In this document: positions 44,766 through 49,583 of the stretch, one piece after another
Position numbering within the stretch: position 1 is the first letter of the stretch
How the letters are laid out: every line of letters starts with the position of its first letter
Assembly (NCBI GenBank): GCA_902518955.1
Contig: CABYIR010000001.1
Span: 1 to 64,000, forward strand
DNA from: an uncultured Pelagibacteraceae bacterium
GTDB taxonomy: Bacteria > Pseudomonadota > Alphaproteobacteria > Pelagibacterales > AG-422-B15
Direction: 5' to 3'
Length of the DNA stretch: 64,000 nt
Notes under the pieces: generated by a model
Seen by the model: only the letters and a program-made list of their open reading frames with translations
Told to the model about the DNA's origin: nothing
Database searches by the model: none
Translations under genes and position numbers: made by a program

Positions 44766-46271
44766 ATGCCTATTTTCAAAGAATATATCGATTTTGATGC
44801 TGTAGGAATTGCTGAGTTGATAAAATCTAAAAAGATTCAAGCTATAGATGCCTTGGATACAGCCATTGATTTAATTGAACAGTTAGACCCAAAATTAAAC
44901 TTCATGCACCAAAAGACCTATCATTATGCTATGGAGTCTCTGAATCGAAATAAGGATTTAAATGGTCCTTTTGCCGGTGTACCTATGCTGATGAAGGATA
45001 TGGATAGTGCTTTATATAGCGTTCCAATGATGCAAGGGAGTAATTATCTAAAAAATATTCCAATGAAATTTAATAATAGCTTATCGAAGAAATTCACTAA
45101 TTCAGGAACACTCATTTGTGGAAAATCTGCGACTCCTGAATTTGGCTTAATGATTACAACAGAACCTAAAGCTTTTAAACCGACTCGCAACCCATGGGAT
45201 ACAGAACGATCCACAGGTGGTTCAAGTGGTGGCGCTGGATCAGCAGTGGCATCTAGAGCAGTACCTATTGCGCATGCGAGTGATGGAGGTGGCTCTATTA
45301 GAATACCGGCAGCTACGTGTGGTACAGTAGGTTTAAAACCTACTCGAGGAAGAATATCATTTTCTCCATCTCATGGAGATAAATGGGGAGGACTTACACA
45401 TTCTGGAATTCTATCTCGAACTGTACGAGATACTGCATATATGTATAATGAATTATTTAGCTCAGAAATTGGCGATCCCTATTCTGTGCATTATGAAAAA
45501 GGTAGCTTAATAAATTCATTGAATGCTAATAAAAAATATAAAATTGGCTTCAATACTGAGTCAAGACTTCCAATAACAATAACATCTGATGCAAAAAATG
45601 CTGTTATGCATAATGCAAAACTATGTGAAAGCATTGGTCATAATGTTGAGGAGTGTAATATTGATTATGATGGTTTGTTATTATCAAGAGCATTTGCAAT
45701 TATAATTTCATCTCATGTATCTCAGATGTTTAATGAACTTAAGGATCTTGTTGGAAGATCTTTTAAAAAAAGTGAAGTTGAAACTGCTTCAAGAGCACTT
45801 AATTATCTTGGAAAAAGCTTTAGAGGTAAAGATTATGCATGGGCTCGTTATACTATTCAAAAAATATCAAGAGATGTAATGCAACAAACAAATGATTATG
45901 ATGCTGTAATTTTACCAATTATATCACAATCAGCACCATTGCTTGGTGAACTGAGGCCAAAAAAAATTAATAATATTCAAAATGAGATTCTAATGGCTTT
46001 AAGATTAGGATTTTTGTTTAGAATACCATTTATACGTGATCCTTTTTTAAATAAAAATATAATCGAAAATTATTGGTACTCTCCTGATGCAGTACTTCAA
46101 AATGTTACAGGTCAACCTTCTATATCATTGCCTACATTTTATACTAATAATAATCTTCCTTTGGGCGTGCAGTTTGCAGGTCGATACGCAGAAGAATCAG
46201 TTTTAATTGATTTAGCTTCCCAATTGGAACAAGCAAATCCTTGGATCGATAAGAAACCTTCTATTTCTTAA
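44766..46271 (+). CDS. Amidase signature family protein
   Basis: FAGVPMLMKDMD, RSTGGSSGGAGSAVASRAVPIAHASDGGGSIRIPAATCG. Confidence 0.94.
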   Translation: MPIFKEYIDFDAVGIAELIKSKKIQAIDALDTAIDLIEQLDPKLNFMHQKTYHYAMESLNRNKDLNGPFAGVPMLMKDMDSALYSVPMMQGSNYLKNIPMKFNNSLSKKFTNSGTLICGKSATPEFGLMITTEPKAFKPTRNPWDTERSTGGSSGGAGSAVASRAVPIAHASDGGGSIRIPAATCGTVGLKPTRGRISFSPSHGDKWGGLTHSGILSRTVRDTAYMYNELFSSEIGDPYSVHYEKGSLINSLNANKKYKIGFNTESRLPITITSDAKNAVMHNAKLCESIGHNVEECNIDYDGLLLSRAFAIIISSHVSQMFNELKDLVGRSFKKSEVETASRALNYLGKSFRGKDYAWARYTIQKISRDVMQQTNDYDAVILPIISQSAPLLGELRPKKINNIQNEILMALRLGFLFRIPFIRDPFLNKNIIENYWYSPDAVLQNVTGQPSISLPTFYTNNNLPLGVQFAGRYAEESVLIDLASQLEQANPWIDKKPSIS

Positions 46272-46971
46272 GTAAAGATAATTGATAAAACCCATAAGTG
46301 AAAACAAAGAAACTTACAAAAGAAATCAGAGTAATAACCTTTTGAGCGATTACGGATATGACCATTCTATTGTAAGAAACTGATTCTTTAAATAATTCAA
46401 GATTCTCTCTTGGGCTCACATCAGGAGGATCTGAAGTTTCAAAAAAAGCATATATCGTAATTGATAAGAGAAACAATACTGAAGCTACTGTGTATTTATT
46501 GCTTACTGGACTAAAGAAAAAAGCAAGGGTGAGAAAAACCATCGCAGGCACCATCGATCTAAAACCGACGATTACAAAAAATACATGTTCATGGAAATAT
46601 AAATCTGCAGGAGTTAGTCCAACACCAAGAAATGATAAACCAGATAACATTGCTATGTAAGATCCAATGGTTGCACAGACATATGAAATCTTATTATCCT
46701 TAAAAAGTCTTGGAACTAAAATAAACGATAGACACGCAAAACCCATCATTACAAGAGTTGAGTTAAATAAAAAACACGAAAGAAAGTTTTGTTCGCCGCT
46801 TACAGTTTCATAAACACCTAGATCACTAAAGAAATTTTCACTAAATGAATAAGATGTTAGAGTTGGGTCATATAATGAGCCACCTGGAAATAAATATATA
46901 GCTATAGTATTTACAATTACAAAGTAAATCACCATGATCCGAATTGGATATACTGTTAAATTATTGATCAT
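46261..46971 (-). CDS. Multi-TM membrane protein, DUF998-like (copy 2)
   Basis: FPGGSLYDPTLTSYSFSENFFSDLGVY; paralogous to the adjacent ORF. Confidence 0.65.
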   Translation of the reverse strand: MINNLTVYPIRIMVIYFVIVNTIAIYLFPGGSLYDPTLTSYSFSENFFSDLGVYETVSGEQNFLSCFLFNSTLVMMGFACLSFILVPRLFKDNKISYVCATIGSYIAMLSGLSFLGVGLTPADLYFHEHVFFVIVGFRSMVPAMVFLTLAFFFSPVSNKYTVASVLFLLSITIYAFFETSDPPDVSPRENLELFKESVSYNRMVISVIAQKVITLISFVSFFVFTYGFYQLSLLKK

Positions 46972-47668
46972 TAGTTTCTAGTAAATTATTAATTCCAATA
47001 GTAAAAGTATATATATTAATCATTATCATGATTGCCATAAGTTTTTGCATTATTACCTTAAATACTTGGGTTTCCATTGTATAAGTTTGTGCGTAAAGTA
47101 TAGTATCAGCTGGGTCAATCTCAGGAATATGAGATAAATTAATTGCATATATAACAAGTAATGCAATTAGAGCTAAAGATAAGGATGCATATAAGTTATT
47201 TATTCGACTAAATAATATCGCAATCGAAAAAAAAATAATTCCTAAAGAAGTAGTGTTAAAAAAATATTCAGCTACAAAAATATGCTTTTGAAAATATAAA
47301 TCTTCTGGTGTAAATCCAACAGCAATATAGAAAAGGCAACCAATAAAAATAAAGGTGCCTCCAATTAGAGCAAACCCATAAGATATTTTATTTTGTTTAA
47401 ATAATTTAGGTATTTTTAAAAAGGAAATTCCTAAAAAAATATTCAAACAACAGATGGAAATAAATATAAAAGAAGAAAAAAAATTTGTATCACCAGACAT
47501 TGATTTATATCGCCCTAGTTCGCTTATAAAATTTTTAGTAAATGAATATCCAATCTGGTTGGTATCAAGGTGATTGCCCCCAGGAAATAACATCATTGAG
47601 ATAGCAAAAGCCACTATACTGATGATTATTATGAACCTTGGAACATATATGTACCAAAATTTATTCAT
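46961..47668 (-). CDS. Multi-TM membrane protein, DUF998-like (copy 1)
   Basis: FPGGNHLDTNQIGYSFTKNFISELGRYKSMSGDTNFFSS; paralogous to 46261..46971. Confidence 0.65.
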   Translation of the reverse strand: MNKFWYIYVPRFIIIISIVAFAISMMLFPGGNHLDTNQIGYSFTKNFISELGRYKSMSGDTNFFSSFIFISICCLNIFLGISFLKIPKLFKQNKISYGFALIGGTFIFIGCLFYIAVGFTPEDLYFQKHIFVAEYFFNTTSLGIIFFSIAILFSRINNLYASLSLALIALLVIYAINLSHIPEIDPADTILYAQTYTMETQVFKVIMQKLMAIMIMINIYTFTIGINNLLETNDQ

Positions 47669-48567: not shown

Positions 48568-48999
48568 TTATAGCATTCCTATTAATCGAATCCACATCCA
48601 AATTAATGTTAGTAAAGCAGGGACAAAAATTAATGCTCTAACTGGAAAGCCACCCGCTACTACCAGATGATTAAAGAAAATATGATATACAGAATGAGCC
48701 AGGCGTAGATAAAAAAACCAATATGCAAGGCTAACGAAATAGGCATCAACATTTCCTGTAATGAATATAATTATACATACTGCATAAAAGAAAATCGGAT
48801 ATTCAAATAAATTGATATGATTTTTTTGAGCATTTCTAAGAATCATTGAACCCTCAGGAAAGAGTGCATGTCTATAATCCTCCCCTTGACTAGACTTATC
48901 TATATAAATCTCTTTTACTCTTAGTAAGGTTGTAAATAGGAATACAGCAACTGTAAGCAAAAGCATACAGTACATTGGGTAAAATATTTCAGTGCTCAT
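48568..48999 (-). CDS. MAPEG-like membrane protein (paralog of adjacent ORF)
   Basis: QKNHINLFEYPIFFYAVCIIIF, LRLAHSVYHIFFNHLVVAGGFPVRA. Confidence 0.78.
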   Translation of the reverse strand: MSTEIFYPMYCMLLLTVAVFLFTTLLRVKEIYIDKSSQGEDYRHALFPEGSMILRNAQKNHINLFEYPIFFYAVCIIIFITGNVDAYFVSLAYWFFYLRLAHSVYHIFFNHLVVAGGFPVRALIFVPALLTLIWMWIRLIGML

Positions 49000-49014: not shown

Positions 49015-49042
49015 TTGAAATTAGAATCAGTAACATTATATA
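49015..49042 (+). promoter_or_regulatory. Putative sigma70-type promoter of the 32-aa ORF
   Basis: TTGAAA (49015-49020), 16-bp spacer, TATATA (49037-49042). Confidence 0.4.
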
Positions 49043-49085
49043 CCTCTAAGATATTTTTTAACATATTTATGAAAGGAGGTGGTCT

Positions 49086-49184
49086 ATGTCTATTAGTAGT
49101 ATAATGGAGCCCACAACATTTGCGGGTCTTCCTAATCACTTAGATATTGGAAACCTTCACTTTGTAAGTGGAGCTCCGAATTAA
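49086..49184 (+). CDS. 32-aa small protein of unknown function, not in supplied ORF list
   Basis: MSISSIMEPTTFAGLPNHLDIGNLHFVSGAPN*; AAAGGAGGT Shine-Dalgarno at 49072-49080, 5 nt before the ATG; followed by a terminator. Confidence 0.65.
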   Translation: MSISSIMEPTTFAGLPNHLDIGNLHFVSGAPN

Positions 49185-49194
49185 AACTACAATT

Positions 49195-49222
49195 AGCCCC
49201 CATTAATTTGGGGGCTTTTTTT
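49195..49222 (+). terminator. Rho-independent terminator
   Basis: AGCCCCC-ATTAATTT-GGGGGCT followed by a T tract. Confidence 0.9.
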
Positions 49223-49583
49223 ATTTTAAATTGGCTTTAAATTTTCTTGGTTTTCCAGTTTTACCGACAGCAACATAAGATAAGTTTCCTGCAGCGACTA
49301 AAACTTCTTTTTTATTAAGCTCTACTCTTCTGGCTTCAAGTGAAAAAGTCATTTTTGAACCTTTAACTGATTTAACATCACCATAAATACAAATGAACTT
49401 TCCCAAATGCATTGGACTTTTAAATTTAACATTAACATCAGTTAAGACGGCCGCTCCACCAGAAACAATCTGTGAATAATAAATGCCTCCGTGTGCAATT
49501 TGTGTGGTAATCCAACCACCATGCCCAGTTCCATAGGGATTGGTGTTTTCAGGCTGACATATATTTCGAATAAGTAATTTCAT
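49221..49583 (-). CDS. Hotdog-fold acyl-CoA thioesterase-like protein
   Basis: NPYGTGHGGWITTQIAHGGIYYSQ..., VNVKFKSPMHLGKFICIYGDV, GKPRKF. Confidence 0.8.
   Translation of the reverse strand: MKLLIRNICQPENTNPYGTGHGGWITTQIAHGGIYYSQIVSGGAAVLTDVNVKFKSPMHLGKFICIYGDVKSVKGSKMTFSLEARRVELNKKEVLVAAGNLSYVAVGKTGKPRKFKANLK

Follow-up and report, generated by a model that had tools for sequence, protein, structure and literature searches.

A probable CC2171-like structured RNA gene with a full 16S-tail complement and a weakly constrained short ORF in a SAR11-clade family

We describe a small element of a SAR11-clade (Pelagibacterales) family that is best read as a stand-alone, single-copy gene for a structured RNA of the CC2171-like kind. 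Its ribosome-binding site is complementary to 16 consecutive nucleotides at the 3' end of the cell's own 16S rRNA, and a short open reading frame (ORF) runs through a rod-shaped body that ends in an intrinsic terminator. Computation supports its conservation, its single copy, the full 16S complementarity, the rod, the existence of the ORF, the class-wide conservation of ORF length and the weak or absent constraint on the peptide. From these sequence properties we consider it probable that the SAR11 element is a translated regulatory RNA whose peptide is dispensable.

Results

The locus and its parts

In the window, that is, the whole 64,000-nucleotide stretch of DNA that was analysed, the element is flanked by two genes on the minus strand, a divergent MAPEG gene (48568-48999) and a convergent 4HBT thioesterase gene (49221-49583), and therefore forms a transcription unit of its own. 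The wider neighbourhood also holds VanZ-like, SDR, Mpo1-like and DUF998-like genes. The first-pass annotation had proposed a stand-alone transcription unit for a 32-residue peptide between a MAPEG and a thioesterase gene; both neighbours were borne out, the promoter boxes, the Shine-Dalgarno (SD) sequence, the ORF with its translation and the hairpin with its T tract all lie where it had placed them (Table 1), and the unit proved to be a genuine conserved gene.

Table 1. Coordinates of the element and its parts in the window.
Feature	Position	Strand	Basis
Promoter-like site TTGAAA-N16-TATATA (TTGAAA, 49015-49020; TATATA, 49037-49042)	49015..49042	+	Putative function
Predicted transcript, ~170-175 nt (5' leader, ribosome-binding site, rod-shaped body, intrinsic terminator)	49049..49223	+	Promoter-like site and terminator
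GAAAGGAGGTGGTCTA, complement of 16 consecutive bases of the own 16S rRNA 3' end	49071..49086	+	Sequence match
Short ORF, 32 codons plus TAA	49086..49184	+	ATG, stop and frame preserved across the family; peptide weakly constrained
Closing helix, 5' strand GTAGT, shortly after the start codon	49096..49100	+	Folding, alignment
Rod 3' arm GGAAACCTYCACTTTNTRAGTGGAGCTCCG, almost invariant; includes ACCTYC, complementary to the SD core	49149..49178	+	Alignment
Closing helix, 3' strand ACTAC, directly before the terminator	49186..49190	+	Folding, alignment
Intrinsic terminator hairpin AGCCCCCATTAATTTGGGGGCT plus T tract	49195..49223	+	Stem with covarying pairs in the family

Among family members the promoter block TTGNTTGAAATNAGAATC...TTATATA is almost invariant. 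A promoter scanner left this site off its list because TATATA lacks the required final T, and sigma-70-like matches in this AT-rich stretch were fewer than expected by chance (7 observed against 13.8 expected); the putative promoter is better supported by conservation among relatives than by scanner evidence. The same segment looks bidirectional, since its AT block read on the minus strand gives a TATAAT-like box for MAPEG; the leader of that gene, GATTCTNATTTCAATCAAGGAG, is almost invariant in the family, and box and leader plausibly serve the divergent gene. Elsewhere on the minus strand (46261-47668) two similar membrane proteins are encoded in tandem, the tested one being DUF998-like at 26.4 bits, below the cut-off. 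At the other end of the unit, the terminator hairpin proper (49195-49216) has 8 pairs, 6 of them G-C, followed by the T tract. Compared with sister sequences, the loci L020 and L023 have their terminator loop turned round (TTAACTT to AAGTTAA), which amounts to a hairpin flip.

Distribution in Pelagibacterales

Of 54 genomes searched in the window's Pelagibacterales family, 42 matched the peptide in a six-frame search, which also gave one weak match (E 0.3) in the sister family, which holds nearly all remaining genomes of the order. When 398 genomes of the order were searched with a covariance model of the family, the same 42 were recovered at E < 1e-30, with no instance of the element in the sister family, home of most Pelagibacterales genomes; the matches at E 5e-5 to 4e-3 in this sister family, the Pelagibacteraceae, consisted of shared GC-rich terminators only and were rejected as homologues. 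All genomes sharing the element's core sequence are Pelagibacterales single-cell genomes and metagenome-assembled genomes, and those surveyed are partly incomplete. Every surveyed genome with the thioesterase carries the element and the family genomes that lack one of the two lack both, a joint absence that indicates incomplete assemblies. In the window's genome the element is single-copy.

The ribosome-binding site matches the 16S tail

The 16S gene of the window's genome terminates in GGTTGGATCACCTCCTTTCTAAG, and GAAAGGAGGUGGUCUA pairs with the 3' tail of this rRNA, UGGAUCACCUCCUUUC, over 16 consecutive nucleotides with two G-U wobbles. The SD sequence AAAGGAGGT occupies 49072-49080, leaving a gap of 5 nt to the ATG at 49086. 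What had been called a near-ideal SD is real, but its strength was understated, as the complementarity reaches the A of the start codon. The predicted SD:16S duplex has an energy of -25.7 kcal/mol, compared with a mean of -4.2 (sd 2.8) and a best value of -12.7 for 64 other ORFs of the window. The variants found in relatives (GATC for GGTC, TCCG for TCTA) preserve the pairing. Within the window's genome the sole other match to GAAAGGAGGUGGUCUA is the antisense of the 16S gene, and each family genome has a single copy of the 14-mer GAAAGGAGGTGRTC in addition to the antisense of its 16S 3' end. In predicted ensembles the SD core is only about one third unpaired, and most of its pairing is weak and involves partners other than the ORF. 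Intramolecular sequestration of the SD by ACCTYC, as suggested by the consensus fold of the class-wide loci described below, was rejected, the probability of SD-ORF pairing being ~1% in the SAR11 sequences.

Nucleotides are held more firmly than the peptide

The family alignment has invariant ends and a variable middle, the 5' end reading GAAAGGAGGTGRTC.ATGTCTA and the 3' end of the ORF TGGAAACCTYCACTTTNTRAGTGGAGCTCCG. Within genera, synonymous divergence of the ORF was zero in g1 and 0.14-0.15 in g2 and g4, 3- to 5-fold lower than in the flanking genes of the same genomes (0.46-0.68 for the thioesterase and 0.59-0.67 for MAPEG). Its pN/pS was 0.24-0.44 within genera and 0.68 between them, against 0.07 and 0.33 for the thioesterase. 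Frozen synonymous sites together with a high pN/pS indicate that the nucleotides are held, and that the amino acids are held less than in ordinary genes. At the amino-acid level, pN/pS tests gave weak purifying selection within the SAR11 family and none class-wide. The first-pass annotation had proposed weighing amino-acid against RNA conservation, and the constraint turned out to lie chiefly at the RNA level, in favour of a small RNA (sRNA), while the ORF itself is still preserved.

In its SAR11 form the ORF measures 32-33 codons and is never lost: ATG, TAA stop and frame are preserved in all family members, net length changes are multiples of three inside the ORF but not just outside, and one variable codon stays V/M/L. 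These features suggest that the SAR11 ORF is probably translated. The C-terminal motif GLPNHLDIGNLHF, put forward earlier as a candidate for conservation, is not conserved as a whole; its GNLHFxSGAP part is invariant in the family peptides, with DNA that is almost frozen, synonymous positions included, and the middle third of the peptide is unrelated between genera. Some amino-acid constraint in the SAR11 form is conceivable, given GNLHFxSGAP and the pN/pS of 0.24 in one genus. The peptide matched no Pfam family, and among the neighbours examined there was no RiPP modifying enzyme or transporter. Three roles had been suggested beforehand, and the one that fits is a dual-function or regulatory sRNA; neither a signalling peptide nor a RiPP-like precursor is supported, with no clear amino-acid constraint and no modifying genes adjacent. 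A type I toxin was also dismissed, since the peptide, by inspection only, is not hydrophobic.

A predicted rod closed around the ORF

The ORF is predicted to fold as one rod whose closing helix, GTAGT:ACTAC, joins the end of the start region to the edge of the terminator. The rod closes in 11 of 11 SAR11 variants but in only 27% of dinucleotide shuffles (mean z -6.6). Covariation in the family alignment is limited to the terminator because the ends are invariant and the closing helix varies too little within the family. The stop codon lies at 0.93 of the rod length in SAR11 and at ~0.63 elsewhere.

Relatives across the Alphaproteobacteria

The pattern AAGGAGGTGRTC-N1-4-ATG occurred in 50 of 289 alphaproteobacterial genomes, and GAAAGGAGGTGATCCNATGTC with at most 2 mismatches in 104 of 388, about once in each, where the block starts short ORFs; a reversed-pattern control was near zero. 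A sample drawn from the whole phylum gave matches in 53 alphaproteobacterial genomes and in only 4 others, all at two mismatches, and a search of plasmids gave a Methylobacterium record as the sole match. Because the class-wide set favours strict matches, a genome missing from it is not proof of absence; the set also includes related, non-independent loci. One class-wide locus passed the Rfam cut-off for RF01867 (CC2171) in one test. When twenty class loci were compared with RF01867, at least 17 matched in register, four above the cut-off and the rest below, which argues that the block marks a family whose core Rfam already holds.

The search pattern sets no ORF length, but in 67 of the 69 class-wide loci left after removal of near-duplicates the ORF has 14-36 codons (median 25), a range reached by 35% of shuffles and 25% of the other two frames; the corresponding p of 2e-28 is optimistic, the loci being partly related. 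The encoded peptides are unrelated between lineages and share no motif, with a pooled pN/pS of 0.94 over 30 pairs of related ORFs. A free whole-sequence search for closing helices had no power, whereas anchoring on the terminator gave power: a helix between start region and terminator was present in 46 of the 49 loci with a detectable terminator, the simple finder having found none in 20 class loci, compared with 33% of shuffles (mean z -3.2). In the AGTGAT-type subset this helix is 91% paired and has a covariation score of 0.40; shuffles give 0.21 (0 of 500), and slid versions stay at or below 0.17.

Several loci deserve separate mention. L217, L218, L221 and L302 carry the same extended SD before ORFs that are 56-58 codons long and whose N-termini resemble signal peptides (for example MSKSMKTLAVASVLMFGSAISGAALAEC...); they are perhaps a separate protein-coding branch. 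In L183-L185, L258 and L259, from AT-rich small-genome alphaproteobacteria, the ORFs end in ...LSEQP...; L184 and L185 have LHFLSEQP, near the SAR11 ...LHFLSGAP, a likeness that could stem from the block GGAGCAACCTYC / GGAAACCTYC that they have in common, or be due to chance. The CC2171 locus L233 lies ~1.2 kb from a permuted tmRNA gene.

Relation of the SAR11 element to RF01867

RF01867 matched the window element with 15.8 bits (E 0.57), below the gathering cut-off of 75 bits, at which the element was not found; the weak match is full length and in register (49063-49216). Of the traits that we derived from RF01867-matching loci, the element has the full 16S-tail block GAAAGGAGGTGRTCY followed by RTGTC; it also has the closing helix, and its 32-33 codons fall within the ORF range of 14-36 derived here. 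A model built from other alphaproteobacteria with no SAR11 sequences (R2) gave the window element 4.8 bits, which is not significant, the best family member in a model of other alphaproteobacteria being L032 (16 bits, E 0.043), and a model from 16 class loci did not recover the window element. In the opposite direction the SAR11 model (R1) matched 22 of 33 class loci, mostly in register and with a best E of 1e-4, a comparison that is partly circular, as the loci were chosen by the block. With such weak profile scores, it is the 5' block and the architecture that carry the case for homology to the class-wide set, and we call the SAR11 element CC2171-like, not a formal member of RF01867.

Discussion

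Interpretation and alternatives

Two facts are the hardest to explain otherwise: an ORF of fixed length with a free sequence, and a match to the full 16S tail across the class. We propose that pairing with the whole free 16S tail would lead to very strong ribosome loading, and that the loaded ribosomes would translate the short ORF through the rod and open it, in which case ribosome capture and RNA remodelling would be the key effects and the peptide would be irrelevant. Weighing against this reading are the low profile scores of the SAR11 form, its stop codon near the end of the rod, the mostly paired SD core in predicted ensembles, the scant variation of the closing helix within the family and the conceivable amino-acid constraint. 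Because the next downstream position has no same-strand gene, the output would probably act in trans. Once opened, the RNA might expose stretches able to pair with other RNAs; alternatively, it might hold, or report on, free 30S subunits. That the output is ribosome capture or sensing, as against mRNA targeting, is a tentative suggestion to which we give clearly less than even weight. We are equally guarded about the wider proposal of an alphaproteobacteria-wide RNA family whose conserved function would be to capture ribosomes, through complementarity to the whole 16S tail and translation of a short ORF that is fixed in length but free in sequence. Such an RNA would sense or titrate ribosomes; the ribosome would act on it as a mechanical switch, and the peptide would be waste.

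Alternatively, the element could be a conventional base-pairing sRNA that uses its invariant 3' arm AAACCUYCACUUU as an anti-SD-like seed to block SDs in other mRNAs, with the ORF being secondary. The near invariance of this arm while its pairing partner drifts agrees with such a role, as does the motif [AG]CCTYY, present in 49% of class-wide ORFs and 13% of shuffles; however, a search for trans targets by exact complement of the seed found no conserved second site in relatives, and a seed leaves both the 16-nt 16S match and the fixed ORF length unexplained, so that we regard this explanation as rather unlikely. We judge in much the same way, as improbable but deserving attention, a trap or decoy that binds free small subunits via the 16S tail and limits initiation, for instance in starvation. 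In its favour, the duplex with the 16S tail, at about -26 to -31 kcal/mol, is far beyond that of normal SDs, and the complementarity includes, throughout the class, bases that an SD does not need; against it, a conserved ORF length implies elongation and termination, beyond mere binding.

It is less likely still that the element is the mRNA of a functional small protein of 32-33 residues whose RNA structure just tunes expression. The preserved start, stop and frame, the multiples of three, the V/M/L exchange and the invariant GNLHFxSGAP are what such a protein would leave, but the synonymous sites are frozen like the rest, pN/pS is high compared with the neighbours, the middle third of the peptide is unrelated between genera, and the class-wide peptides, with their near-neutral pN/pS, have neither a common motif nor a Pfam family. 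A cis-acting leader peptide or attenuator, which the short ORF, hairpin and terminator resemble, is very improbable, as it is contradicted by gene orientation: the genes after the terminator lie on the opposite strand, the thioesterase is convergent in the family members examined, and no regulated same-strand gene follows directly downstream.

The reading of the element as a translated regulatory RNA gives CC2171, an Rfam sRNA that lacked an explanation, a testable hypothesis: a class-wide RNA that matches the 16S tail over its full length and whose ORF is conserved in length but neutral in its peptide. If true, the purpose of translation would here be to remodel an RNA, or to report on it, instead of making a product, and slow-growing ocean bacteria could read ribosome availability through an RNA. 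It also cautions against taking a conserved small ORF with a perfect SD as evidence of a functional small protein.

Comparison with known systems

The survey of structured RNAs in Ca. Pelagibacter ubique (PMC2704228) offers a likeness in that it, too, concerns structured RNA from intergenic regions of a SAR11 genome rich in AT; none of the further candidate motifs in its section 10 fits the element. Extended SD-aSD sites in S. aureus also pair beyond the core toward the start codon, by two extra base pairs in many mRNAs (PMC13009471). The direction of pairing is alike, and the SAR11 element differs in having a match of 15-16 nt in one dedicated RNA gene.

In S. meliloti one third of the translated sORFs that were newly identified map to annotated sRNAs (PMC10117765), and the tested gene regulation by Pos19 of Rhodobacter, not found outside R. 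sphaeroides, is independent of its peptide (PMC5036791). The general idea of a translated sRNA with a dispensable peptide has precedents in these cases. Translated or dual-function sRNAs such as RNAIII, SgrS, Pos19 and rnTrpL are likewise small RNAs with a translated short ORF. To our knowledge, none of these combines a class-conserved full 16S-tail complement with a neutral peptide.

The closest known system is the Caulobacter sRNA CC2171. We found no description of its function; outside the 2008 discovery paper, which may already comment on its ORF, the literature that we located names RF01867 in lists only. The SAR11 form shares with CC2171 the register from leader to terminator, the 16S-tail complement, the RTGTC start, the short ORF, the closed rod and the terminator, and it is single-copy, just as CC2171-matching loci occur about once per genome. 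It differs in scoring far below the Rfam cut-off, in having rod sequences of its own and in an ORF that spans the whole rod.
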